30,434 bases of DNA, taken from a virus. A program made the position numbers and the translations under genes. The DNA lies in IMG/VR virus record IMGVR_UViG_3300037843_000088, positions 1 to 30,434 of that record; one strand, 5' to 3'. The notes beneath the pieces are model-generated. The model ran no database searches. It worked only from the letters and a program-made list of their open reading frames with translations, and was not told the DNA's origin. Position 1 is the first letter of the stretch. Every line of letters starts with the position of its first letter. This document shows positions 2,158 to 28,212 of the stretch, piece by piece.

Positions 2158-3765
2158 TTATGGAACCGTTGAGAACCCTTGCGCTTTCGCACCGGCTTCG
2201 ATTTGCTCTCGCGTGGCCTTTGGGTTAGCTTTCATTGCCGCTGAAATGCTAATTGCATGGGTATCAGGTTTTGGCTTCTCTTCTGCCGGAGTTCCTTTGT
2301 TAATCCCTTGTAGTTTCCTGGTCAGGTCGGTATAAATCTTCCGATGTTCTTTTGGATCGTCTGACTCGGTTAGCGCCTGTTGAGCATCGGAGATTGTTTC
2401 GAGCCGTTGGGTGTTTCGCTGGCTCACAACATCGAAAAGATCGCGGGTTTGCTTTCTCTGATCCGGAGTAAGCGCAAAGCCTTTGTTCGGGTCTGCCCGC
2501 CATGCGTCGAGCTTCGCCTTGATGGATTGCCACTGCGTTCTGCCCCCAACGATGCGGGAGATTTCGGCCTCGTTCATGCGAACGCCGGAGCCTTGCCCGC
2601 CAGCCATTACCGAGAGTAATTCAGGCGCTACCAGAGCATCGGCCTGCGGCGTTCCCTGATCCAACGTATCTCCGATTCGGGAAAGCCTGTCGGCCCGTGC
2701 CATCGGGTCTTTTGCAATGTCGGCAATGCGAGTTGAGTTGAACTGATAGCTACGATCCGAGCGGGATTGGTCGCGCGCTGTTGTGTCTTTCGGCTCACGC
2801 TTCTCGGTCTGCAATGCCGTCCTGATCGTATCCCGGTTCTCTGGCGTGTCAGGAAGCCCTTTACCTGCAAGCCGGTCGCTAATTGCCTTCTCTTCCTCGT
2901 TAGCAGTCAGCGGCTTCGGCTTCGCCGCCGCCATCATATCCTTTTCGTCCTGGGTGAGGTTCTGGCTGTTCGGCCCTAGGAGGTTTCCGGCGGCATCGCG
3001 GAAGCCGATTATTGAGCCTTCCTTATCGAATAGTGGCTCATTCTTTCCGGGCACGGCCTCTTTCGGCTTCTCAGTTGCCGCCTCGTACTGTTTCACCCGA
3101 GGCTCAAGCAGCGCGGCCTTGGCTGTATCTCCTGTTGCCAGCGCATCGGAGTATGCCTTGAGCACATCCTGCTGTTCGGGAGTTGTGGCTTCCCGCTGAA
3201 GTTTTTTGATCTCCTCCAAGCGCAATTGAGTCTCGGCATTTACTGAACCTGTTTCAGCGCCGAGATGCGCGGTCTCCGCTGCGGTCTTTCCCAGTCCAGC
3301 CTCTCGCGTCTCTTCGCGCTCCTTGAACTGGCGTGTGCCGGGAATTTCTGGGGCCAATTTTGGGTCTGCAAAGATTGCTGCTCCGGTTCCAATCTTTCCA
3401 AGAACATGACCAATGGTTCCAAGCGTTGATCGTCCTGCCGGAGCCATCCCTGACACCGTTGGAGCCGTCAGGTCCGAATCGCTGAGAACTGGTTTGGTTG
3501 ATATTGCCCCGAGCGTAGGGCGTGTCAGTGGAACGGCGGTCTGATCGTCTTGCTGTTGCCCAGGAAGCCCAACGCGGCCAAAGTTTCTAAGTGCCGGATT
3601 CCCGCCGAGCGTAGGTCCTGCCGTTGGCATGACCGGCGCGTTGCCAGCGTTGTTGGCCCGTGACATCGCTCCGTTGAACTCCTCGGGGGTCAGATTGCCC
3701 AAGAGGCCCAGGATGCCATCAGCGGCGGTCATTGGAAGGCCGAGTTTTACTGAGTCGTTTGCCAT
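2158..3765 (-). CDS. Large helical internal virion (ejection-like) protein, 535 aa
   Basis: Not recognised as a named family. I chose the ATG at 3765 because it follows the upstream TAA by one base, with GGGGGCGG at the right distance; a longer frame would run back into the upstream gene. The N-terminal 150 residues are Gly/Ala/Pro-rich with repeated PTLG and STLG motifs. From about residue 150 the protein is strongly charged and helical (KEREETREAG, LRLEEIKKLQREA). The last 40 residues include a segment reading MKANPKATREQIEAGAKAQG. There are no cysteines and no secretion signal. Between two other Ala/Gly-rich genes, it is best read as the middle member of a three-protein internal or ejection set. 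This is inference from context. Confidence 0.72.
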   Translation of the reverse strand: MANDSVKLGLPMTAADGILGLLGNLTPEEFNGAMSRANNAGNAPVMPTAGPTLGGNPALRNFGRVGLPGQQQDDQTAVPLTRPTLGAISTKPVLSDSDLTAPTVSGMAPAGRSTLGTIGHVLGKIGTGAAIFADPKLAPEIPGTRQFKEREETREAGLGKTAAETAHLGAETGSVNAETQLRLEEIKKLQREATTPEQQDVLKAYSDALATGDTAKAALLEPRVKQYEAATEKPKEAVPGKNEPLFDKEGSIIGFRDAAGNLLGPNSQNLTQDEKDMMAAAKPKPLTANEEEKAISDRLAGKGLPDTPENRDTIRTALQTEKREPKDTTARDQSRSDRSYQFNSTRIADIAKDPMARADRLSRIGDTLDQGTPQADALVAPELLSVMAGGQGSGVRMNEAEISRIVGGRTQWQSIKAKLDAWRADPNKGFALTPDQRKQTRDLFDVVSQRNTQRLETISDAQQALTESDDPKEHRKIYTDLTRKLQGINKGTPAEEKPKPDTHAISISAAMKANPKATREQIEAGAKAQGFSTVP

Positions 3766-3766
3766 T

Positions 3767-4438
3767 TTAACCGCCCCCACCTGTTGCTCCAAGGATGCCT
3801 TTGGCCACATTTCCGCCAATCCCAACAACATCGCCAAATTGCTTCATCCAACCAGCCCAAGGGTCGCTCTGGGTTGCGGCCATTTCGGTTTTGATGTCCT
3901 CCGGCACCAGCCCCGCCTCGGCGGTCTGCGCCCCAATATCCTCGCCCAAGATGCCCGATAGACTCCGGTTTGCCATTTCCTGCTGGCTCTCTTTTAACTT
4001 GGCGTTATTCGCCAAAATTGACTGCAAAGCTCCCCCAGTGGCCCGTGCCCCCTCGCCAGCCGATGCCACATCAGTTGCCCCGAGCCCCGCTGCGTTCCCT
4101 GTCCGCATGGCCCTGAGTCGAGACCTCTCCTGGGCTGCTCCGGTTGCTCCCGCTCCGGTCTGTTCAGCCGCTGTTTCCATTTCGCTCAGGCCGAATGGGC
4201 CGTAGCCAGGCGTGTTGCCAGCCGCGTAGGATTCGAGCCTTGGCACGATGCTGCCCTGAATACCCGCTGCCTGCGCCCCATAGCCCGCTGCCGTGCCCGC
4301 AGCGGTTGATTCGGCCTGCTGAGCCTGCTGGGTAAGCGCGCGGTCACAGAGCGCCAGAGGGCCGGAATAGAGGTAAAACGAGTCGAAAAGAACTTTTCCG
4401 GTCTCGATGTCCCAGGTTGTTTTAGTGTGAATCTTCAT
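3767..4438 (-). CDS. Ala/Gly-rich ejection-like protein with N-terminal tag shared with the scaffold, 223 aa
   Basis: The first 31 residues (MKIHTKTTWDIETGKVL then Y-x-GP-x-ALC) match the N-terminus of the scaffold protein (17760-19214) without gaps, 14 of 31 identical. The rest is a low-complexity Ala/Gly/Gln-rich helix (QAQQAESTAAGTAAG), a charged middle with QERSRLRAMRTGNAAG, and a C-terminal amphipathic Gly-rich segment. That composition resembles small ejection proteins of podoviruses. I use the ATG at 4438 because the tag begins with this Met in both proteins. A TTG seven codons upstream is possible but has no clear ribosome site. Its own ribosome site is weak; a four-codon micro-frame ends in an ATGA overlap with this ATG and could couple translation. 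Function in virion interior or DNA delivery is inferred. Confidence 0.7.
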   Translation of the reverse strand: MKIHTKTTWDIETGKVLFDSFYLYSGPLALCDRALTQQAQQAESTAAGTAAGYGAQAAGIQGSIVPRLESYAAGNTPGYGPFGLSEMETAAEQTGAGATGAAQERSRLRAMRTGNAAGLGATDVASAGEGARATGGALQSILANNAKLKESQQEMANRSLSGILGEDIGAQTAEAGLVPEDIKTEMAATQSDPWAGWMKQFGDVVGIGGNVAKGILGATGGGG

Positions 4439-4472
4439 AGCAGCGCCATTGTTCCCCAATTCTTGATTGTGG

Positions 4473-4580
4473 CTATTTCAGGGTGACCTTTGGCATATTC
4501 GAGGTGGACACGGGTTCTTCTTGATGACAAAAGCTTCTTTCTATAAGTCTGGTAATGGCCTCAAATTGACCCGCATACAT
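4473..4580 (-). CDS. Possible small protein, 35 aa
   Basis: This open frame fills most of the otherwise empty 146-base gap between the 126-residue gene and the ejection-like protein. It begins five bases after the upstream stop and reads MYAGQFEAITRLIERSF in its first half, an amphipathic helix, then a Glu/Pro/Ser segment. A purine stretch (GAGAAAG) lies upstream but farther than usual. No family is recognised. Support comes from spacing and plausible composition only. Confidence 0.38.
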   Translation of the reverse strand: MYAGQFEAITRLIERSFCHQEEPVSTSNMPKVTLK

Positions 4581-4584
4581 GTTG

Positions 4585-4965
4585 TCACACTTTCTCAAAA
4601 TGATGGATAAACAGTCTTTCCCCAAATGGTTTCGCTAATTCATCAAACCGCTTGATTGCCTCCGAAGATTGATACAGGAAATCGTCTTCCGTTATATCGT
4701 ATGAGAAAAATAGAATTCTTGGAGATATTGTCCGGTCATGTGCGCTTGGATATTCTTCCGCCTTGAAACCAAAGTTTATCACGGCAGATATTTGGCGAGC
4801 AGTGTAGCCATCTGCGTTTGCCCCTTCGGTCAAAATAGGTTCAGGCACCGAATACACTTCACCACCAAAATCAAAGAACTCAAGGTGACGGCGAAGCATG
4901 AAATCATCGGAACAGACCATCCAAATGGGTGGCGGCCAGCTTCGTTCTTTTATTTCAGTTTCCAC
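4585..4965 (-). CDS. Unknown protein in an AT-richer pair of genes, 126 aa
   Basis: The GTG start at 4965 has GGGGG four bases upstream. The product is acidic and looks globular, with segments such as LEFFDFGGEVYSVPEPIL, ARQISAVINFGFKAEEYPS and RILFFSYDITEDDF. No catalytic motif or membrane helix is evident and I do not recognise the family. By eye it is less GC-rich than the structural genes around it, as is the acetyltransferase gene upstream, so the two may be accessory (moron-like) genes inserted in the late operon. It is followed by a possible 35-residue frame and preceded by a 22-residue frame that would overlap its start. Confidence 0.62.
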   Translation of the reverse strand: METEIKERSWPPPIWMVCSDDFMLRRHLEFFDFGGEVYSVPEPILTEGANADGYTARQISAVINFGFKAEEYPSAHDRTISPRILFFSYDITEDDFLYQSSEAIKRFDELAKPFGERLFIHHFEKV

Positions 4966-5018
4966 GATGCCCCCATTCTAACAGCCTGGAGAAGCACCTC
5001 CAAGCTGTAAATCCTCAT
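4950..5018 (-). CDS. Possible coupled micro-ORF, 22 aa
   Basis: An ATG overlaps the acetyltransferase stop as ATGA and opens a 22-codon frame beginning MRIYSLEVLLQAVRM. It ends 16 bases inside the following gene. The overlap is the arrangement seen at many junctions in this operon. The frame may only serve to carry ribosomes to the GTG of the next gene. The evidence is slight. Confidence 0.28.
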   Translation of the reverse strand: MRIYSLEVLLQAVRMGASWKLK

Positions 5019-5419
5019 TTTAGCACCACCGTCCAATTTCTCCACGGCGACGGTCTCCATCCGAGCTTTTCAATGACCCGTGCAAAACATTTGGCAATCT
5101 TTTCTGGAATCCAACAGCTAACCTCTTCGAGTCCGAGTTGTGTGGCTTCCCTACTACACTCACCGTGGAGGATTTTAGCACTTCTGGCCTTTTCCAGCGA
5201 AGAAATCTCTGGATTGAGCCATAAAAAAGCTTCCCCGACCAATTTAACCGTTGCCATGCCCAGAATCCTGCCGTTTTCGTCACAAACAGCCTTTTTGACA
5301 CAGAATAGTGGCCCAAAAGACTCGGGAAGTTGGTAGCCAACCTGCATTTGGGCATGAAAATGCGCGAGTTTCGGCATATCTTCCGGCTGCCAGTCGCGGA
5401 TTGTCAATTTCTGGCCCAT
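5015..5419 (-). CDS. GNAT-family N-acetyltransferase-like protein, 134 aa
   Basis: The layout is that of a small GNAT fold. There is an N-terminal strand and helix (LTIRDWQPEDMPKLAHF), a strand ending in GRILGMATVK, a strand reading EAFLWLNPEI that would precede the acetyl-CoA loop, a helix (residues about 76-95), a strand (LEEVSCWIP), and a final helix leading to an ARVIEKLGWRP motif. Such a C-terminal EKLGW/EKxGF motif is common in GNAT enzymes. The canonical Q/R-x-x-G-x-A loop is not clear, so the protein may be divergent. Small GNAT-like proteins occur among structural genes in several podoviruses, where the substrate is usually unknown. It lies two bases downstream of a structural gene and overlaps a micro-ORF at its stop. 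Confidence 0.65.
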   Translation of the reverse strand: MGQKLTIRDWQPEDMPKLAHFHAQMQVGYQLPESFGPLFCVKKAVCDENGRILGMATVKLVGEAFLWLNPEISSLEKARSAKILHGECSREATQLGLEEVSCWIPEKIAKCFARVIEKLGWRPSPWRNWTVVLK

Positions 5420-5420
5420 T

Positions 5421-5825
5421 TCACATTCCGGTCACAAGGAACGCGGGATTCGGCGTGCATCCCATGTCAATCCTGAGCAAATTCCAGTTCGCACAGCTTT
5501 GACCGACCGAGGTAATCTGAAAAAACGCCCGATTGGCAACCACGTTCAGCGGCACATTCACATCGCCCAGCGCCGGGTCCGCGAGCGTAAACGGCGCTTG
5601 CTCGAACGGATATGGCGTGTCGAGTGTTTCGGGCAGCATTGTAATCGCAACCTGCCCCGATCCTTCCATGTTCACCAGCGCGTAGGGGTAGAGCGCCATC
5701 GCCAGCCCCAATTGCAGCCGTTCGCGGTCTTGCGAGTCGGCAAACGCATAGGTGACGTAGTTCGACAGGATGCAGCAGCCGTTGTCGGTTGTCGCAGCCG
5801 AATCGAGTTTTGATATGCCAGCCAT
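5421..5825 (-). CDS. Probable virion structural protein, 134 aa
   Basis: A beta-rich protein without a recognised family. The N-terminal part reads SNYVTYAFADSQDRERLQLG with a hydrophobic MALYPYALVN segment; the second half is strands rich in Pro, Val and Thr (LGDVNVPLNVVANRAFFQIT). There are three or four scattered cysteines and no zinc ribbon. Its ATG abuts an upstream TAG, though that TAG closes a frame with no convincing start. A tail or neck role is inferred from position between the nozzle-like gene and the ejection genes. Confidence 0.65.
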   Translation of the reverse strand: MAGISKLDSAATTDNGCCILSNYVTYAFADSQDRERLQLGLAMALYPYALVNMEGSGQVAITMLPETLDTPYPFEQAPFTLADPALGDVNVPLNVVANRAFFQITSVGQSCANWNLLRIDMGCTPNPAFLVTGM

Positions 5826-5911
5826 CTACTGTTTCTTTTGTTCCGGCGGTCCCTGGTTTTTCTTCGCATCCTGCGAAGGGCAGTGGCCTCATTTCTTTTT
5901 GACAATTTTCA

Positions 5912-8900
5912 TTATGGCCCGAAGAACTCCGCTTTGAATTGACCGCCCGAATAGCTTGAGCCGTCGAGCAGCGAGGTAATGACGAAATGGAACGTGAATT
6001 TCTGCGGCCAGCTCTGGCATGTCGCCGTGACCGTAATTGGCTCGTAGCCGCATCCTGCCGAGATGATCGAACCGGAATCCGGGGCGCATGTTAGCGTGCC
6101 CGCCCCGGAATCCTGCACCAGCTCGAAGATTGAAAGGCCAAGAGACGGCGCAGTGATGATGTAGCACTTAATCTCGAGAACCAAAGTCGTCATATAATAG
6201 CCGGGAAGCGTGTAGATCGGCCACGAGGCCCGGCCCATTGGAACCGATCCGATATTAAATTCGGGATCAAAGTTGAAACCGCCCCATGCCTGATATTCGC
6301 CCACGGCCTGATAGATTCCAATGACCTGAGTGCCTAATGTTGGGGCTACCGCGTAGGTAACGCTGATTGAGCCGGTGGTGTAATTGATCGTCCCGGCGGT
6401 CACTCCCGTTCCAACGATGTGCCCGGAACCATCATCATGGGCATACACGGTCCCGGAGATAACCTGGATTGAGCCGGCGCTGACCGGCGTGCTTGCAAGG
6501 CTCCCGGTAAATGTTTTGGTTCCCCCATCGCCAACTCCAAGACTCTGCGCGGATAAAGTCGGATTGATGGAAAGCTGGCCGAACGGAACGGGGATAGAGA
6601 TGCTGTGCGTGTTACTGGCAAGATCGGTGCCCTTCAAGGTCGGCAAATAGATAGACGGGAAAGCGCTTGGAGCGAAATTGCAGGCCGCTCGCATCCAAAG
6701 GCTTGTGCTGGTAGTCGAGTAAATCGCACCTTCGCCCGCCGCAGGGTATGCCAGCGAGCCAAATCCGCCCTCGACAGTCGCTGGAAACACGGCTGACCAG
6801 TCGGGCCAGGAAAGCGTCACGGTCCCGGTATATCCGTCGAGGAAACTGACGGTCACGGTGTACTTATAGGCTCCGTTTATTGCATTGCCCGTGTAGGAAA
6901 GGGTTTGGTTTTGCTGCGGGAAGTCAAACAGCGCCGTAATCTGGAATGTTTCCGTTGCCGCGTTCACGGTAAACGGCGATTCAGAGGAACCGCCGCAGCC
7001 CGGCGGCGGATTGTAAACGGTCAGTTCCAGGGTTGCCGCGCTTGCAACGTCAGTGCTGAGAATCGTGACGAGCAGTTGGGTGCTGCTGACGTAGGTCGTC
7101 ACCCGTGGCGAGCCGCCAACTTCCACAACCGAAGATGGAAAGAAATTGCTGCCCGTCACCAGCACCGTAAAGTTGACTGCGATTCCAGCCAAGACCGATG
7201 AGGGCGTTAGCGTACTGATTGCCGGGACGCCGCCTTCACACGAAATCGAAAGCGTTGCGGCTGGACAGCTCCAGTAGCCGGTATCGGGATTGTAAATTGA
7301 GATTTCCGCTGTTCCAGAATCCGCAACGTAACTGGCCGGAACTTCTCCGGTAAGCTGGCTGGGGCTGTCATAGACGGTAAACAACGGCGTCGTATTCCAA
7401 TAGACCACCATGCTTGAAGTGAAATTCGATCCCGTGACCGTCAGGTTAAAGTTGCCACTTCCAGGTATCACGTTTGTCGGGCTGATGGAAAGCTCCGGGG
7501 GCTCGCCCTGGCCAAACCAAACCTCTTCGCTGCCATCCGATCTTTCGATGAGCGATGCGCAAGCAGCCGGAATCTGCCACGGGGACCACTTGCGTTTCAT
7601 GTCATGGAACAGCAGCATTCCGGTAAAGGCCGAAGGGTAGATTGCATGACCGTTGGCAATTTCCGCGCCCGTCATCATTCCGAGGTATCGGCACATCAGG
7701 ATCACGTTCGGAGTGGTTGGAGCCGCATTGAGCGGCGCATTGGGAAGCCACTGGTTCGGCGTCGGCAACGGCAGTCCGACAAGAATCCTCTGGTTGTCCA
7801 GATCGTTCAGCATCCATACCGTGCTGTCGGACGGTTTGTAGCGGGCATCCCAAATCGGCTGAATTTCCTGGCTGATCTTGATGTGGTTGCCGCCGTCAAA
7901 GATGTAAACCCCGTTCTGATCGGCAACGCCCATATACTCTTCCCCGACGAAGTTAGCCAGCGGCCCGAGGGAACCTACCGCGTTCGAGATTTCATCCACT
8001 ACCCATGAATCCGGCTCGCCGGAGGCGCTTTGGATTGGAGAGAATGTCCGGCTCTTGGTGGTGATGAAATACTTGTTGATAAATACAAAGTGGTTGGTTT
8101 GCGGCTGTGAACTCAGGATAGAGGTATCAATCGCTCCGGTCACGCCGTCAATCGCTTCCGTATTTTCCGCGTAACTCGCCGCCACCTGCAAGGTGTAAAC
8201 CGGCTGGTTTGCCGCAAATACTTCGATGCGATCCACGGTCACATTATCCAGATTCGCAAGATTCAGCGGATAGACCCGCAAGAGCAGATCGGCAGGAACG
8301 GCATCCCACAGCGGATTATTCAGCGGAACAATGAACTCCTGAAGTGTGGTGGGCATGGACGACATCGGAATAACCGCCTGCCATCCGGCGGAAACCGCAG
8401 TCGCCGGGTTGCTTTCCGCGACCCCGTTTGGATTGACCAGCGTCAAGGTAAGGGCCGTGGATGCCACGCACAGCGCGTTGACGATATTGTTCCCAGGATT
8501 GGTTGCAAATCCCGATACCGTGAAATATAAACCGGCGAAGGCATTGGAGGCTCCGCCCGTGATCGTGCCAGAATAAACCGTGTCGCCGCCGGATGCGTTA
8601 GCGGCTGCGGTGAGCGTGAAATCGTAGACCGTGGCGCTTGGGGAATAAAACTCAATGACCAGGAAGCCGCTCGCAAGCCCCGCCGAGTTGGCCGCTGTCA
8701 CCCGAATCGAGTAGGCGGTGTTCGGCTGAACGATTGGTGAATTCAGGTTCGGAACTTCATAAGCAACCTGGCTGAGACTTGCAATCGAGGCCAATACCGT
8801 TCCAACCGAATTGATTGTTGAGCCCGAGGTGTTATTGATGAACAGCGATTCCCCGAACACCTGAGAATAAATAAGGCTCACGTAGGTTGCGAGGCTCGAT

Positions 8901-15650: not shown

Positions 15651-16160
15651 TTAGGTCACTACAGAGGTTCGGTCATATTGGGCGAGGTAGGCAAGCGCCT
15701 TGGCTAGCCTGTCGCTTTCGACAAAAGCCAACGCTGTGTTGCAATTGGCGCACAGAAGCCCTCGGGTGCATTTGCCGCATGATCTCCTACCTGAACAGCA
15801 ATGATGGTCATGGTCCACAGCGAGCCGATAGTTTTTACCAGACCCCTGATGGACATTTGTTTCAACATTTCCACAGATAGCGCAACGACCATTTTGTGCG
15901 CTGAGTTTCGCATCGTACTCTTCTGGTGTAAGCGACGATTGCCGATTGAGGTTTGCTCTCCACTGATACTCCCGCAAAACTGGGAGATTTTCAGCTTTAA
16001 GTTTCTCGTGATTGCGCTTGGCCCATTTCTTGAGCTTGTCCTTGTTTCGGGCGCTCCAGCCACGGTGATAAGCATTCCAGCAATCCCGGCAAAGCGTCCC
16101 GTGTCTCCAATTGGTCTTTGGCTCATGTTCTTTACCGCATTTTGAACAAATCTTTTTCAT
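15651..16160 (-). CDS. HNH nuclease of the recombination endonuclease VII type, 169 aa
   Basis: An Endonuclease VII-like domain is clear. Zinc ligands C93/C96 and C137/C140 surround a DHDH motif (116-119). It ends in the family signature RGLLCANCN (133-141), whose Asn is the final HNH residue, followed by a helix. An extra insert with CC and C-x-x-C lies between DHDH and RGLLC. The N-terminus has another pair of knuckles (C5/C8, C24/C27) and a basic helix (KDKLKKWAKRNHEKLKAEN) suited to DNA binding. Between capsid and decoration genes and less GC-rich than both, it is likely a free-standing homing endonuclease rather than the phage's resolvase. I chose the ATG at 16160 because GGAGGATGCC precedes it. 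That ribosome site is paired in a hairpin (16165-16195). Confidence 0.82.
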   Translation of the reverse strand: MKKICSKCGKEHEPKTNWRHGTLCRDCWNAYHRGWSARNKDKLKKWAKRNHEKLKAENLPVLREYQWRANLNRQSSLTPEEYDAKLSAQNGRCAICGNVETNVHQGSGKNYRLAVDHDHHCCSGRRSCGKCTRGLLCANCNTALAFVESDRLAKALAYLAQYDRTSVVT

Positions 16161-16164
16161 GGCA

Positions 16165-16195
16165 TCCTCCGTATAAACAAACATAACACGGAGGA
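16165..16195 (-). promoter_or_regulatory. Hairpin that occludes the ribosome site of the HNH gene
   Basis: Perfect 8-bp inverted repeat TCCTCCGT / ACGGAGGA with a 15-base AT-rich loop. On the mRNA the 3' arm contains the GGAGG Shine-Dalgarno site of the HNH gene, so folding would hide it. Similar hairpins restrain late translation of homing endonuclease genes in T4 (for example I-TevI). Confidence 0.6.
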
Positions 16196-16216: not shown

Positions 16217-17551
16217 CTAAATCGTTGGCTGCGTTGCACCTGAAACGATCACGCCAGCACGAACGTTGCTGTTAATTAAGTTGCAAGCTGTTACGTAGAC
16301 GAACATGGTGCTGCTCAGATACGATCCGCCAGCGGTTCCGAGGTCGGGCACCGGGGCAATCGTGATGCCTCCGCCGAAGTCGTACAGTTCGAGCGGAACC
16401 ATCTCGCCCAGATACCAGGTGCTCATCGTGAACAGGTCGAGCCGTCCGGGCAGCGCATTGTACCCGACAGTCAGCGGATAGCCGCCAAACTCGGTCGGGA
16501 ATCCGGCTGGGGTCATGTCCGGCGCATTAGCCGCCGATTTCCCCATCGAATCCATGCGCGAGGTCAGGACTTGCAGGTACAGGTTCCCAATCTGGAATGC
16601 CTGATCGGGTCCGCAATACCACATGACCTTCTTGATTGATGCGTTATCCGGCCCCAAAGCGCGGCCCAAGAGCACTTGTGCTCTCCACGGTGTTGAGGTC
16701 GAGATCGGAGCGTTGTTGAGATTGATGATTGGAGTGGTCAAACGTCCCGGATAGGTTGCCCGGTTCAGACCGCCGATAACTCCGGTGTTGGAGTTGACCT
16801 GCCAGGCCCGCAGACCCAGGATGGAACCGCCAGCGGTTCCCGGAGCGCCCTGGACAATCAGGAGATCGCCCGTGGCGGTGCCAGCCGGAAGCGCTTGCTG
16901 GGAATAAATCGTTTGAGACACCGCATCAACGAAGCTGATGGTGAACGTCCCGCGATTCGTTCCGCTCAACTGGTTCCACACCTGTACGGTCTGCTGGTCC
17001 GTAAACTGGAAGGCGTTATTGAGGCCGACAATCGAGGAGAATGACGGCCCGGCTCCGCCCGTTCCATTGTTGATCGTCGCGGTGGTTGGGATGGTGTCCA
17101 AGGTCCCGGAGCCGTCGCCTTGGAACAGAGCTTCCAATCCCTGAGTGGCCTGGTCGAAGGTGTTCTTCAATTCCTGGGCTTGGACGTTGAACAGCCCGCG
17201 CTTTTGGCCTTCGGTGGCCTGCCGTGCGAGCCAAGAGATTTCGCAGGGGGCGTAAATCACCACGGGCGAGACCGCAAAGCCTGCCCATTGTGAGCCGGTC
17301 CCGCGATACAGGGAGTCGGCGTTCCCGGTTCCCTGGATGATTGCTCCTCCGGCCTGCATCCGCATCGGGATTCGCAGGGAGGGGCGCTGAACGCCGCCGG
17401 CAGCCGTCACGTTGGAAATGGGAATGGTGACGGCATCTTTCTTGAATTTTCCGTAAAGGGTTGTGTTGTGCTGAACGAGGTCGGGGATTTTCTTAGCGAA
17501 TGCTTCCAATTCTATCGCTTGGACGGCCGATTCTAACAAGGGAGCTGCCAT
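16217..17551 (-). CDS. Major capsid protein (probable HK97 fold), 444 aa
   Basis: The position directly after the scaffold, the length, and the sequence pattern fit a major capsid protein. The N-terminus is a helix (AIELEAFAKKIPDLV) followed by a strand-rich region with PSLRIPMRMQ. A long helix-like segment (FNVQAQELKNTFDQATQGLE) resembles the spine region. An inserted beta domain lies at about 160-250 (VWNQLSGTNRGTFTISF), and the C-terminal half carries MWYCGPDQAFQIG and STWYLGEMVPLELYDFGG, in the style of capsid P- and A-domains. The ATG follows GAGGTG at a somewhat long spacing. A stop lies just upstream in frame, so no longer form is possible. The HK97 assignment is inference. Confidence 0.75.
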   Translation of the reverse strand: MAAPLLESAVQAIELEAFAKKIPDLVQHNTTLYGKFKKDAVTIPISNVTAAGGVQRPSLRIPMRMQAGGAIIQGTGNADSLYRGTGSQWAGFAVSPVVIYAPCEISWLARQATEGQKRGLFNVQAQELKNTFDQATQGLEALFQGDGSGTLDTIPTTATINNGTGGAGPSFSSIVGLNNAFQFTDQQTVQVWNQLSGTNRGTFTISFVDAVSQTIYSQQALPAGTATGDLLIVQGAPGTAGGSILGLRAWQVNSNTGVIGGLNRATYPGRLTTPIINLNNAPISTSTPWRAQVLLGRALGPDNASIKKVMWYCGPDQAFQIGNLYLQVLTSRMDSMGKSAANAPDMTPAGFPTEFGGYPLTVGYNALPGRLDLFTMSTWYLGEMVPLELYDFGGGITIAPVPDLGTAGGSYLSSTMFVYVTACNLINSNVRAGVIVSGATQPTI

Positions 17552-19214: not shown

Positions 19215-19420
19215 TTTGTCTCCTTGAACATCTCGATAACGCACTGCACGGCAATGCGGGCGGATTTCGCGAATTCATCGCCGCATCCGCCAGTAATTGT
19301 CAATCGTCCTTCTCCGGGAACGGCGGTCGCCTCAACCAGAAGCACCATGCCGCCGCCTTCGGCAACGGCTAAACCGTTCACTGCTCCAACTGCCCCCTTG
19401 GCTTCCGGCTGTTCGCTCAT
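19211..19420 (-). CDS. Small protein between portal and scaffold, 69 aa
   Basis: Both ends overlap neighbours by ATGA (portal stop at 19417, scaffold start at 19214), a strong sign of a real, coupled gene. The N-terminal half is Gly/Ala-rich. The centre (GGMVLLVEATAVP, EGRLTITGGCGDEF) looks like a beta hairpin, and a helix follows (AKSARIAVQCVIEMFKE). No family is recognised. Perhaps a portal or scaffold accessory. Confidence 0.66.
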   Translation of the reverse strand: MSEQPEAKGAVGAVNGLAVAEGGGMVLLVEATAVPGEGRLTITGGCGDEFAKSARIAVQCVIEMFKETK

Positions 19421-22400
19421 TGCGCCATGCCCGGTGCCGGAGGTCTCGGCTGTGCAGCCTCAACTCCCGGAACCGGAGGACCTCCCACCTTGGAGCTTTT
19501 CCGAATCTCCGCATTGAACTCACGGGTTTGCACAACATCCTGCCCGCTGGTTTCCAATCCTGTGTCTTTCAGCGCATTAGCCATCGCATCGGGCGGAGCG
19601 TCTTTTAGATTCAAACTGATACCTTTTGGCAGGCCGGCCATTGTTGGCTTTGGTTCGATTTTCGCTTTGTGCTCGAAATAATGAAGCGTCAGGTTGGCAA
19701 AGGCTTCCTTTTCTTCCTGATTCCCGTCAGCGAGTTTGCGCCCGTCCGCGCTGTTGATCTTGTCCAGGCAGGCTTCGGCTTCAGCCTCGTGCTTGTCCGT
19801 CTCTTTTACCGGAACACTCGAAATCAACGGCGGTATGGACTGCAACTGCTGTTCCATCTGCTGAATTGTCTGCAAATCCGGCGGAGCAGCCGGGGTTCCC
19901 GCCATCTGGCTTGCCTTGATCTTGTTGGTGGCGTCGTCCAAAGCCTGTTTTGCCTGAACATAGTCGGGATTCGGAACCGGTGGCATCTTGAGCAGCAACT
20001 CAAACTCTCCCATCTGCTTTTCGTATCCGTCCCAATCCGGGTCCTCCAACCCCGGCAACTGAATTCCTTCCTCGATAGCCTTGTGCCGGACCCGAATCGA
20101 AGTCATCAGCTTTTGGCTCAGCACGTTATTCACGTCCTGGGCCAACTCCATCCATCGGCTGCGCTTTTGAATCGAGGTTTCGGGGAAATTCGCATCCGAT
20201 TCCGGGTAGGCCAGCACATTGCCTTTGAGATCGGCAAGCTCGACCCGCACCTTGTTCCCCGCCGCATCGCTCCCCTCGATAGCTCCGGCGGATGCCGGAC
20301 GGTTCCGCGCCGCAGCCTGCACCGCCTGCTTGAAATATCCGGCGGTCGCCATTTGAATTCTGTGCCAGGGCGTTCCCAGGCACCCGAGCGCCTGATCCCG
20401 CTGCATCATAATTCCGGCGGCGGTATCGGTGTTTGCCGGGCTTCCGAACAGAGACGGCAGGGCGTGGGAGAGCATCTGGGGAAGTTCAGAAAAAAAGAAT
20501 TTGATGAACTCTCCCATGATCGGCTGTGCGGTGGGGAACGGCTCCATCCAGATCAAATCCTGGACACCTTTGCCGGGGGGAATTTCCGAGAGCAAAAACG
20601 GCAGGAAATCGCCTGGCGACGTTCCCTGCTTATTGATTGCGTTCACATCGAACGGCCCCTGTGCGACGTACCGCATGGGAACGCATTTGGTGAAGTACAG
20701 GTCCAGTAAATCAATCCAGTTGTTGAGCCGTTTCTGAATGGAAATCAGCTTTGAGCCCAGCGCCAGCCGGTTCATGCCGCTGCCGGGCAGCGCGTGGACA
20801 AGTTTCAGGTGATCGTCCATGCACTCGCGCCGCGCCTTGATGAATACGTTTCCGGCCTGAATGACCAGCGCCCCATCGGGGAATTTCTCGAAAAAACTTT
20901 CGCGCGTCTCGTTGTCGTCCACGTTCATAAAATAGCCCGGCCTTATCCACGTTCCTTGCACCGTGCAATCGCGCACCATCGAATCGCCCGTGACGTAAGA
21001 GGCTTCTAAGGCGAGCGTCGCATTGATCCGCGCAATCCGGTCTAATTCATCCTCGCCGGAGCCGGAACCTCCGGGCTTGATCTTATCCGCCTTCTCCGGG
21101 AACATGGCTTTGACCAGCGCCACGTCCAATTCTTCCGAGACCTGCGCCCACAGGCAATCCTCCAGCTTCCCGCTTTGCGCGGCGAACGGAACCTTGTGTT
21201 CCAGTTTCCCGTAAACCTTCGTCACTTCCCGGCCACGCGGACGCCCGCGTTTCTGTCCAACCGCGCTCTCGGGAGGAGTGACCGGAAACACGACAGACGG
21301 CTTGAACGTGCCATCGGCGTTCGGGGTAATGGCCGCTATCCATCCGGGCTCAACTTCCGAACCCGGCGGCACGGCGTCTCCCTGAAACATCTTGAATATC
21401 TGGCTGATTACCGAATCGTGGAGCATGAACGCTATTGGTCCCGGTTTTGATAGCCATTCCATCACCGCGTCCTGGACTCGCTGCTCGAACTGGTCTGGCG
21501 ACTCGCCTCCCGCAATCGGCTCGGCGGGATGCTCCTCGAACGCCTCTTCAATATCCTCCGATCCTTTTTGAGAATCCGTGCCGGCGTCGGCCCCGATGTC
21601 GAGCGATGCCAGCCGGTCGTCAACCTCCAGCGGCGCTCCCAGCTTCTCAGCCAGTAGTTGCGCGCTGCTCAACGCTCTCTCGACGGGAGAAGAAACAACC
21701 AGCCTGATGCCTTTCTGCTTTAGCCAGTCCGCAGCCCGGTCAATCTGCCGTTCGCCTTTTTCGTTGATCTCAACCTCATCGCGGCCCCGCTCCTCGTGCA
21801 TCTTGTTCCGGTCAGTCTCCCCATGCCTCACGGCATAGGCCGCCGGCTCCGGCTGCTGTTCCTCGGTCTCGGGCACCACGGGCTCCGATGCCTCCGGATC
21901 GCAGCGCCCAAACTGCTGCGCGTCAATGATATGGTCGGTGACGAGCAGTGCGCGGCCATCGGTCCAAAGGTAATCGGCCAGTTGCTCGTGAAGTTCCAGA
22001 AGATCGTTGTTGCGGGAGAAGATGCGGGAATAGCGGGTTGCGGCTTCTTTCGCCGTTATGTCGGCATCCGCGTATGGATTCGCGGGCTCAAAGCGCACGC
22101 CTGGAATATCGCGGGTCAGGGCCGCAACGATGATTTCGCCGTAACTCGCATAGATGTTGGTTTCGTTCCCGTATAGCGCATACCCGCCGCGCCCCTGTAG
22201 ATAATCGGTTGCAAACGGAATGTAAATCCAGCCGCCGCCGCGCCGGGGCCATAGATACTGATAACCGCGCTTATAGAGCCGGTTTCTCCAGCAATCTTCC
22301 ACCTCCCAGCGCCTGGCCGCAACGTCTATGCTTCCGATCTTGTCTACGAGGGCTTTTAATTCCCGCTCTTCGGTTTCCGACAACTCGGCGTCGGGAAACG

Positions 22401-22518
22401 GCGAAGCGCAGTGCGGAGCAATTTCTCCCGGCTCGAAATTCAGTTCCGGGCGCTCCTCGCTTGCGTCCTGCTTCGGGTCGGTTTCGACATCTACGGGTTG
22501 GTCTTTTGATCCGTCCAT
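19417..22518 (-). CDS. Portal protein carrying an inserted histidine-phosphatase domain, 1033 aa
   Basis: The portal forms the DNA-entry ring and initiates procapsid assembly. Residues about 50-200 (LWPRRGGGWIYIPF, a helix EAATRYSRIFSRNNDLLELH, then YLWTDGRALLVTDHI) and 430-780 (REVTKVYGKLEHKVPF, ALPGSGMNRLALGSKL, LIWMEPFPTAQPIMGEF, GIMMQRDQALGCLGTPW) follow the pattern of P22/T7-type portals. A phosphoglycerate-mutase-like domain interrupts them at about 226-412. A canonical AT-hook-like KRGRPRGR (423-430) follows. The C-terminal 250 residues are coiled and charged, ending in Pro/Gly. Length is well above a usual 500-750-residue portal, mainly from the insert. No strong ribosome site precedes the ATG. 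The upstream gene ends ten bases before it, so coupling is likely. Confidence 0.8.
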   Translation of the reverse strand: MDGSKDQPVDVETDPKQDASEERPELNFEPGEIAPHCASPFPDAELSETEERELKALVDKIGSIDVAARRWEVEDCWRNRLYKRGYQYLWPRRGGGWIYIPFATDYLQGRGGYALYGNETNIYASYGEIIVAALTRDIPGVRFEPANPYADADITAKEAATRYSRIFSRNNDLLELHEQLADYLWTDGRALLVTDHIIDAQQFGRCDPEASEPVVPETEEQQPEPAAYAVRHGETDRNKMHEERGRDEVEINEKGERQIDRAADWLKQKGIRLVVSSPVERALSSAQLLAEKLGAPLEVDDRLASLDIGADAGTDSQKGSEDIEEAFEEHPAEPIAGGESPDQFEQRVQDAVMEWLSKPGPIAFMLHDSVISQIFKMFQGDAVPPGSEVEPGWIAAITPNADGTFKPSVVFPVTPPESAVGQKRGRPRGREVTKVYGKLEHKVPFAAQSGKLEDCLWAQVSEELDVALVKAMFPEKADKIKPGGSGSGEDELDRIARINATLALEASYVTGDSMVRDCTVQGTWIRPGYFMNVDDNETRESFFEKFPDGALVIQAGNVFIKARRECMDDHLKLVHALPGSGMNRLALGSKLISIQKRLNNWIDLLDLYFTKCVPMRYVAQGPFDVNAINKQGTSPGDFLPFLLSEIPPGKGVQDLIWMEPFPTAQPIMGEFIKFFFSELPQMLSHALPSLFGSPANTDTAAGIMMQRDQALGCLGTPWHRIQMATAGYFKQAVQAAARNRPASAGAIEGSDAAGNKVRVELADLKGNVLAYPESDANFPETSIQKRSRWMELAQDVNNVLSQKLMTSIRVRHKAIEEGIQLPGLEDPDWDGYEKQMGEFELLLKMPPVPNPDYVQAKQALDDATNKIKASQMAGTPAAPPDLQTIQQMEQQLQSIPPLISSVPVKETDKHEAEAEACLDKINSADGRKLADGNQEEKEAFANLTLHYFEHKAKIEPKPTMAGLPKGISLNLKDAPPDAMANALKDTGLETSGQDVVQTREFNAEIRKSSKVGGPPVPGVEAAQPRPPAPGMAQ
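21283..21843 (-). other. Histidine phosphatase (PGAM/SixA-like) domain inside the portal
   Basis: Encodes portal residues about 226-412. The hallmark is AVRHGETDRN (RHG at 231-233). It is followed by the second arginine in VVSSPVERALSSAQLLAEKL (R281), an acidic GGESPDQFEQRVQDAV segment and the second catalytic histidine in IAFMLHDSVISQIF (H367). All catalytic positions of the superfamily (RHG, R, H) are present, so the domain could be active. In the family the first His is phosphorylated transiently while phosphate is removed from small molecules, proteins or phospho-His. What it acts on in a portal is unknown. Confidence 0.82.
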
Positions 22519-25404: not shown

Positions 25405-28212
25405 TCATCCTCTAAACTCCCGCTCCCAGGGCATCACCACCGTGTTGTGAACTACTGTACCCGTGGCCTTGTGCTTCCTCCGCCATGACACTGTGGCAAA
25501 CCACCTTGCTACCGGATCATCAATCTTCTCTATCTCCCGCATCGCCAACACCTCATCCGGTACCGCAGCCTTCCGCAGCCTGTAGGTCAGCACATGAGTA
25601 GCCCCGTCGAACGGATCGTCACCATCGAACTTGAGCGACTTCTCCGGGTCCATCTTGTCCCGGCAAACGCTTGGCAGCACCTCTATCAGCTTCCGGCATG
25701 ACGGATCAATCACTATCTCAGGCGTGCGGTACTCCGGCGGTTGCGTTCCTGTAATCTGCGGCCCCATCAAATCATAGAGCAGCGCGGCCCTGCCCTTGGG
25801 GTCCATGCTTGCCATCTCGGGATACGGCATTCCGTTCATGCGGAAAACCTCGGCCATCTGGTCCGCAATTGTATCACTTTCCGTCCGCTTTGCAAACGCA
25901 TCGTGCGAAAGGAAGATATGCTTGACCTGTGGACGCTCCTCTTGCGGCGTTCGGTCCACAATCTCTTGAGCCAGGGCCCGCGGCGATCTTCCAGACTCAC
26001 AGAACTCCCGATAGTACGCCAGCTTCCGCAACGGTTCCCGGCCAGCCCTCTCAATCTCAATCTGTGAGGCCCAGTAGCACGCCGAGAGATGCGCGAAGCC
26101 CCAGTCAATCCCAATCCAGCGCGTATCCCATGCAGCAGGCCGGCACGGCGCCACATGGCGCTCAAGCGAGAAGATGTCGTAATACTGTCCCGCAAACTGG
26201 TCCATACGGCCGAGGAGCCAGCCAACCCGCATCGCCTCTGGCAGCGCATTCAGCTCCCGCCCATGCTGCGTCCGCTTGGTGAAATAGTCGAACTGCTTAT
26301 CCGCATCCCAGTGGTAATAGACCTTACAGGCCGCTTCCTCCCTGGCCTTACGGGTTTCCGCAGGCCATGCGGCAAGCTCATCATCCGTCATGCCGTCAGC
26401 ATGGGCCAAGTCCGTTACCAGCGGGTCTTTCGCCCACTCCCAGTTGTCCCAGCCAAAAGCCTGAATAAAGGAGTACTCGCGGGGATTCTCGATCCAACTG
26501 AACGAGCCATCGTCCTGCTCAACCGTTCGCAGTGTGTCTCGGTGCTGAATGTCTGTCTTGTACCGCTTATCGTAGAAGATACGTTTGAGGAAGCTGTGCC
26601 CGATTCCGCCAGGATTGAATGTCAGAATGAACTTGCACGCCGACGCACTGACCCCAGGCCAGCGCGTACAGCTTTTCATTGTGATCAACTCCCGCTCCGT
26701 AAACGCTTCTGCTTGGTCCACTACAAATCCCCGGTACTCCTTCCCGATCATACCCTCAACATCCCCAGGGGTTTCGGCATAGCGGAACGCAATAACGCTC
26801 TTGTTGGGCAGTAAGAGCTCCTTATCGCCAACCCTGTACCAATCCCGCATGAACGGCCACTGAGTCAATAACGGTTCGATATGATTCTCCCGCACCAGGT
26901 CATACGTTCGGCGCAGGATACACCAGCGCGTACCAGCGTTAGCAGGGTCCAGTGCCAGCAGCACAACAACGGTACGGGCCGCGTGACTGTTGTGGGTCGG
27001 AATAAACGTGCGGCCAATCAGGTATGTTCCACTTGGGTCGGCAACCGTAACACACTTCATTCCGCACGGCTCAACCCGGTAAACCGAGACGATGTAGCGG
27101 CGCTGGGTGGTGGGTCGGAAGTCTGATAGTTTCTGACGCGCTGCCTTGCGCTCCAATTGAAAACATCGGAAGCCAGCGACGAACTTAATCCCGTAACAGG
27201 CCGAGACAACCCTATCGTAAATCTTGGCCTCGCCAACCGTCTTAGTGGCCTTGATTCCGAGAGAATTTACCAACTCAAGAGTGTCGTCAATCAGCCGCTC
27301 ATTAGTGTTGCTGAAACTGGCCTGCCCAAGACCCTCGACGGTGCCGTCACTATCCATCAATCCTTGCAACAGAGCAATTCTCTGTGCCTTAGACGCTCGC
27401 TTGTATTGCGGCGGGATGTGTTTATTGCGGATCAACCCGGCGCTGCGTAGGGAGGCTGTTAGCCCATCGAAACGCATTGTCAGAAACGGAGCCTTGCGAG
27501 TCGGAGAACCTTCCAATCTTGACCAAGTTGGAGGCGGCAGGAACGCGGCCACCTCGCGCATGTCGGATTCTGCCATGCCAATCAACCCAGTATGGCTCTG
27601 CCCATCGCCCAGCCATAACCCGAGCAGATATGGTTCGATTGGCAGGTCAGCAGCAGGTAGTTCCAACGGGGCAGCGACAGCTACAGAATGGTTGATCTCC
27701 CGGCCATCTTGGACGGTGAGACTCAATGCAATTTCTTCCGTGGTGCGGATTGAGCCTTCCGGCGGGTCGAGATAGGTATAAGCACGGGATTTATTGAGGG
27801 ATGTAGTTACGTCTTTCAGCCACGGCTTTTGGCTATTCATTTTTGCGCGGCTTGGCCTGATAGCACGCCGGGTGACCCACAGGTGGTCCGCGTTGGCAGT
27901 CACCCTCTCACCAGTGTTAAAACATACCTCGTAGGCTGCCGACTCAATACGAGCCTCTGTAACAGCTGTGATGCGCGTTGGCTGCCCGGACGCTGTAAAC
28001 ACGGTATCGCCAACCAGCAGCGCCCCGTGGGGCTTGAATCCGCTTGGATGTGTGTCGAGGGTAACGGGAACCGGCGTGTCATATCGTAGCGCCTTCGCGC
28101 CTCCGCGAGATCCGCCGTACCCCAACCACGTTGCGGCTGACTCTTTCACTAGGTTGTACAGTTTGAATTGCTTCGGTTGAAGTTCGGGCTGAATCTCGAT
28201 CCGGCGAGCCAT
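25405..28212 (-). CDS. Terminase large subunit (packaging ATPase-nuclease) interrupted by an intein, 935 aa precursor
   Basis: The motor that pumps DNA into the procapsid and cuts it. Removing residues 41-408 leaves a 567-residue TerL. Walker A is restored as GGSRGGAK joined to S409. Walker B is GFVVDQAEAF (D499, with Gln and Glu following rather than the usual DE). The coupling motif is TFNPGG. The RNase H-like nuclease has D703 (IGIDWGFAH), D771 (FLSHDAF) and D869 (DPFDGATH). All motifs expected of an active enzyme are present. The ATG directly follows the stop of the small-terminase candidate. Confidence 0.9.
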   Translation of the reverse strand: MARRIEIQPELQPKQFKLYNLVKESAATWLGYGGSRGGAKALRYDTPVPVTLDTHPSGFKPHGALLVGDTVFTASGQPTRITAVTEARIESAAYEVCFNTGERVTANADHLWVTRRAIRPSRAKMNSQKPWLKDVTTSLNKSRAYTYLDPPEGSIRTTEEIALSLTVQDGREINHSVAVAAPLELPAADLPIEPYLLGLWLGDGQSHTGLIGMAESDMREVAAFLPPPTWSRLEGSPTRKAPFLTMRFDGLTASLRSAGLIRNKHIPPQYKRASKAQRIALLQGLMDSDGTVEGLGQASFSNTNERLIDDTLELVNSLGIKATKTVGEAKIYDRVVSACYGIKFVAGFRCFQLERKAARQKLSDFRPTTQRRYIVSVYRVEPCGMKCVTVADPSGTYLIGRTFIPTHNSHAARTVVVLLALDPANAGTRWCILRRTYDLVRENHIEPLLTQWPFMRDWYRVGDKELLLPNKSVIAFRYAETPGDVEGMIGKEYRGFVVDQAEAFTERELITMKSCTRWPGVSASACKFILTFNPGGIGHSFLKRIFYDKRYKTDIQHRDTLRTVEQDDGSFSWIENPREYSFIQAFGWDNWEWAKDPLVTDLAHADGMTDDELAAWPAETRKAREEAACKVYYHWDADKQFDYFTKRTQHGRELNALPEAMRVGWLLGRMDQFAGQYYDIFSLERHVAPCRPAAWDTRWIGIDWGFAHLSACYWASQIEIERAGREPLRKLAYYREFCESGRSPRALAQEIVDRTPQEERPQVKHIFLSHDAFAKRTESDTIADQMAEVFRMNGMPYPEMASMDPKGRAALLYDLMGPQITGTQPPEYRTPEIVIDPSCRKLIEVLPSVCRDKMDPEKSLKFDGDDPFDGATHVLTYRLRKAAVPDEVLAMREIEKIDDPVARWFATVSWRRKHKATGTVVHNTVVMPWEREFRG
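26989..28092 (-). mobile_element. Class 3 intein with LAGLIDADG homing endonuclease, inserted in TerL Walker A
   Basis: Encodes TerL residues 41-408. The first residue is Ala, not Cys or Ser, and the end is T406-H407-N408 followed by S409. Class 3 inteins splice by a Trp-Cys-Thr triad. W112 (ADHLWVT, block B), C387 (MKCVTV, block F) and T406 (IPTHN, block G) match it. Two LAGLIDADG motifs, YLLGLWLGDG (195-204) and LLQGLMDSDG (281-290), form an endonuclease that would cleave intein-less TerL genes. Both Asp residues are present, so it may be active. The site, between the Walker A Lys and Ser, is a frequent intein target. Confidence 0.88.

Follow-up and report, generated by a model that had tools for sequence, protein, structure and literature searches.

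A histidine phosphatase (HP) domain was found embedded in an internal loop of a 1033-aa viral protein that is well supported as a phage portal, the ring protein by which DNA passes into the head; the phages concerned are uncultured tailed phages. The protein is encoded on the IMG/VR virus record IMGVR_UViG_3300037843_000088, and the whole stretch of DNA that was analysed, 30,434 nucleotides in length, is referred to as the window. The best reading, and in our judgement a probable one, is that the domain is a catalytically active phosphatase that forms part of the head vertex. The features of the window that bear on it are the following:

19417..22518, minus strand: portal protein gene with the inserted HP domain, 1033 aa (open reading frame; the model of the homologue L077 matches solved portals)
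21844..22518, minus strand: N-terminal portal part, residues 1-225 (alignment with insert-less relatives)
21286..21843, minus strand: inserted HP domain, residues 226-411 (Pfam His_Phos_1; alignment with HPs in the PDB)
21823..21828, minus strand: codons of R231 and H232, the latter being the phospho-acceptor His by homology (invariant in six insert-bearing lineages)
21676..21678, minus strand: codon of R281, the second catalytic Arg (conserved among insert-bearing lineages)
21604..21606, minus strand: codon of S305, at the usual place of the proton-donor Glu (alignment with PhoE, CobC and YtjC)
21418..21420, minus strand: codon of H367, the second catalytic His (conserved among insert-bearing lineages)
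19420..21285, minus strand: C-terminal portal part, residues 412-1033 (alignment with insert-less relatives)
25405..28212, minus strand: large terminase gene, upstream of the portal gene, containing a LAGLIDADG segment that resembles an intein (PHROG terminase large subunit, E 7.6e-34; Pfam LAGLIDADG_3)
16217..17551, minus strand: 444-aa gene downstream of the portal gene, candidate major capsid protein by position only (synteny)

The 1033-aa open reading frame was intact in a second contig, IMGVR_UViG_3300009636_000148, which is 99.98% identical over 13 kb, and relatives were found at about 48-58% identity. Because the frame is present in the second contig and in relatives, and is intact in several contigs, an assembly artefact or a frameshift join can be ruled out. 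The portal gene lies downstream of the large terminase gene, and this gene order is common to the relatives. The product of the 444-aa capsid-candidate gene is 58-71% identical in relatives and gave no match in a PHROG search. Within the terminase reading frame, the LAGLIDADG homing-endonuclease segment is located near the Walker A region and is absent from the terminase of the relative L004; it is probably an intein. An endonuclease VII-like reading frame downstream of the capsid-candidate gene (15651-16184, minus strand) is perhaps a homing endonuclease.

Residues 226-411 are a domain of HP superfamily branch 1. Residues 228-378 matched Pfam His_Phos_1 (PF00300) with an E value of 1.8e-28 and 99.9 bits against a cut-off of 21.7, which rules out a chance or motif-only match. 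The earlier note, which had placed an HP domain within the portal protein, was thereby borne out, with coordinates essentially as claimed (21286-21843). The motifs that it had described in the order of the PGAM/SixA superfamily were all found at their places, with RHGET starting at residue 231, SSPVERA at 276 and LHDS at 366, and portal sequence picks up again afterwards, at REVTKVYGK (residue 430). The four core residues of branch 1 (Arg, His, Arg, His) are thus present as R231, H232, R281 and H367. Structure prediction, which had been proposed as a check, gave the same picture: in a full-length AlphaFold2 model based on 13 sequences, the insert was modelled as a domain of its own with pLDDT mostly 70-87, and residues of about 224-417 aligned with solved HPs at a Z score of 19. 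The fold match and the alignment suggest that R231, H232, R281 and H367 cluster in space.

No Pfam or PHROG model matched the rest of the window protein outside the HP domain, and portal identity was therefore tested separately. As the portal part of the full-length model was of poor confidence, this was done on the insert-less homologue L077, modelled with 40 sequences (mean pLDDT 77.9, pTM 0.66). The best 50 PDB matches of this model were portals (best Foldseek E value 9.8e-14), with structural Z scores of 24.2 for the Pan3 portal, 22.3 for SU10 and 21.1 for P22. In addition, the homologue L008 matched the PHROG portal family phrog_156 (E 2.3e-6). The assignment of the 1033-aa protein as a portal is well supported through this homologue model. 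By the same structure comparison, the family has the portal fold in common with the podovirus portals of Pan3, SU10, N4, PaP3, P22 and T7, whereas there is little sequence similarity to them and some family members carry an enzyme insert of about 190 aa. No sequence in the PDB was matched by the portal profile, and profile-profile comparison with the P22 portal and phrog_1216-type portals gave no useful match. Scans of cellular genomes revealed no relative of the window portal, and a search of phage records revealed none covering 80% of it.

Alignment with relatives, another of the checks proposed in the earlier note, demonstrated that the HP segment is foreign to the portal fold, as insert-less relatives pass directly from the VVPETEE region to VYGKLEHK. 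In the L077 model, the insertion site is a loop (residues 215-235, pLDDT under 50) between two confident strands. These relatives and the model rule out that the insert is a normal part of the portal fold. In known portals, the wing domain lies inside the capsid. The insert is most likely located in this domain, as judged from the domain layout of the P22 portal (PMC5290284) and the order of elements. A domain on the wing would be inside the capsid, where it would not reach the outside of the virion and would not obviously be injected. The earlier proposal of an outward-facing loop that could serve as a counter-defence carried in the virion has to be changed accordingly.

In a scan of viral contigs, 78 loci were recovered, the majority of them from the same portal family as the window. 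The HP domain was present at the same site in six distinct lineages (the window and L069, L070, the L071 group, L074, L075 and L062), and about 60 related loci were without the insert. The insert-bearing portals form one clade (100/98), as do the inserted HPs (99/99), and the simplest reading of these trees is that the HP was inserted once, in a single event. Five insert-less loci (L077, L078, L080, L084 and L085) have a separate HP gene beside the portal gene, and these adjacent HPs form another clade (100/98). The separate HP frame starts 3 bases past the portal end in both L077 (portal to 6502, HP from 6506) and L078 (portal to 6445, HP from 6449); the two genes abut in L080 and L084, and the HP starts about 0.7 kb downstream of the portal gene in L085. 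In a Pfam search of 42 whole records, some of which are fragments, 13 had an HP and each had exactly one (eight inserted, five separate, never both). The presence of an HP beside the portal gene in relatives suggests a working part of the head module and not an accident. One explanation would be a morphogenesis switch, with the HP taking phosphate off a component of the head, the scaffold or the packaging machinery at the portal vertex. HPs fused to or beside portal or head genes in several phage groups would fit such a switch, as would the P22 wing, which is known for scaffold contacts, but we consider it unlikely, since close relatives in the same portal family have no HP at all on contigs of 40 kb or more. 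A small Cys-rich segment was seen inserted in the HPs of L084 (6622-7452) and L085 (7281-8108), and an apparent frameshift interrupts the portal of L016 (7938-8150 and 8107-11016) close to the N-terminus.

HPs were also observed with other portals and head modules. Two portals of other types have an HP at the C-terminus: L040, which is of the Mu type (PF06074, E 9.5e-74) and is encoded directly after a terminase gene, and L044, which is of the lambda type (PF05136, E 5.1e-38) and is encoded upstream of a capsid gene. The HPs of the two group together (96/90), apart from the inserted clade, and the two C-terminal fusions may thus share an origin. Searches for records covering 80% of these fusions found none among phage records and, for L044, none among plasmid records. 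In the head modules of other phages, stand-alone HPs were located immediately behind the gene for the major head protein (L037), two genes after it (L041) and two genes after the portal (L033). The last of these (5767-6603) has a Cys-rich segment like that of L084 and L085, here N-terminal to the HP, and GIY-YIG homing endonuclease-like frames, judged by eye, lie on either side of the L033 portal gene (2236-2940 and 4987-5766). L065 contains an open frame of 2003 aa or more (2528-8536) in which HP-like segments occur together with a 2H domain that bears a weak similarity to the anti-CBASS protein Acb1. Its first HP-like segment is without RHG, and an isolated RHGET stretch appears further on; the HP-like part may therefore be degenerate or permuted.

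Four residues are described as conserved throughout the histidine family phosphatases (PMC12051542), and their counterparts here are R231, H232, R281 and H367. Together with N238 and E339, these counterparts are invariant in the six insert-bearing lineages, and the core catalytic residues of the PGAM/SixA type have thus been kept, as the motifs had indicated. The HP parts of the six insert-bearing portals have a mean identity of 43%, compared with 52-57% for the flanking portal parts. Invariant columns make up 33 of the 186 in the HP, and all six of these residues would be among them by chance with a probability of about 2e-5, a figure that treats columns as equal and serves as a guide only. 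At the place of the PhoE donor Glu, the inserted HPs have Ser or Ala (S305 in the window), other phage head or portal HPs have Ser, Ala or Pro, and E. coli SixA has Pro. Proton donors vary across the HP superfamily (PMC12051542), and MINPP, of a related branch, has Ala at this place (PMC11836120); the missing Glu is therefore not proof of inactivity, and we infer that it favours good leaving groups. The lower conservation of the HP part relative to its flanks, the numerous related loci without an HP and the absence of the donor Glu all weigh against an active phosphatase at the head vertex, which we nevertheless regard as the best reading.

Two other explanations of the domain touch directly on these residues. 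It could be a metabolic enzyme that supplies the phage with free phosphate or with salvaged nucleotides or sugars, for which the portal provides expression or location only. The nearest solved relatives do include metabolite phosphatases such as PhoE, CobC and phosphoserine phosphatase, but the donor residue differs, and the fact that HPs are joined to portals and head modules time and again suggests that the connection with the head goes further than expression; this explanation seems to us an unlikely one. Alternatively, a bulky domain could act as a shield or decoy, hiding the portal from a portal-sensing defence such as Avs4, with catalysis being dispensable. The portal fold is a known target of Avs4, and the structures matched by the L077 fold include 8dgf, a portal bound to Avs4. 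However, all core catalytic residues are kept, and adjacent and stand-alone HPs would be unable to shield likewise, which makes a shield highly improbable.

The window domain shares the fold, the motif order, the four core residues and the phosphate-pocket Asn with HP superfamily branch 1 (PF00300; PhoE, CobC, Aquifex HFP), from which it differs in being embedded in a portal and in having Ser or Ala for the donor Glu. The phosphohistidine phosphatase SixA likewise lacks the donor Glu, with Pro in its stead, but sequence similarity is weak, and SixA is a minimal, free protein without the GES segment; the window HP, with 22.6 bits against a cut-off of 74.5 for the sixA equivalog of NCBIfam, is not classed as SixA. 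The statement in the earlier note that portals normally have no enzymatic activity has to be corrected, as portal fusions to 2H, PBECR, InPase, Nudix and lysozyme domains have been described and were read as serving packaging and injection or, for ARTs, as countering immunity aimed at the packaging apparatus (Iyer et al. 2017, 2022; PMC5512222, PMC9503650). In these proteins, too, an enzyme domain is joined to a tailed-phage portal, but the enzyme folds are different and HP is unmentioned there (PMC5512222, PMC9503650), and the window insert lies in an internal loop and alternates with an adjacent gene. The earlier remark on the lack of a described case applies to this enzyme and not to enzyme fusions in general: in a partial literature search, no title or abstract reported a portal fused to a histidine phosphatase or phosphoglycerate mutase. 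What appears to be new here, within the scope of that search, is the HP in a portal; enzyme-portal fusion itself is already known.

The purpose of the domain may be sought in counter-defence, where a portal-borne HP would destroy a phosphorylated signal or modification that a host defence makes while the phage infects or assembles. Such a reading has been given to other enzymes fused to portals (2H, ART, Nudix), and the polyvalent L065 frame links HP-like segments to an Acb1-like 2H domain. The portal, however, is not obviously injectable, and L065 is a single, distant and partly degenerate example; we hold counter-defence to be possible, if short of probable. Somewhat more doubtful is the broader idea that HPs without the donor Glu are a widespread head-vertex enzyme of uncultured tailed phages, associated with portals of at least three families (inserted, C-terminal or adjacent), that clears a phosphorylated signal or modification of host defence at the packaging vertex.

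For an active phosphatase at the head vertex, we propose the following history and mechanism. The HP was probably first a stand-alone gene of the phage head module, and a single uptake would have brought it into a surface loop of a podovirus-type portal, probably on the wing, where it has since been kept as a catalytically competent domain. The portal ring would then place about 12 HP copies at the head vertex of each virion. In phosphoryl removal, H232 would become phosphorylated as an intermediate that R231, R281 and H367 hold, and with the canonical Glu donor missing, the enzyme most likely depends on a good leaving group in its substrate (phosphohistidine, a phosphoanhydride or similar) or on another acid. 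It would act in the infected cell or the procapsid; we favour the producing cell or the procapsid as the site, since injection is not an obvious route for a domain bound to the portal. The target could be an assembly protein, or a phosphorylated molecule from host defence or metabolism.

These results indicate that a portal loop is able to accommodate an entire enzyme domain in a gene that remains conserved, and they identify a natural insertion site in podovirus-type portals. The inserted, adjacent and absent states of the HP provide a natural comparison for the role of a phosphatase at the phage head vertex.
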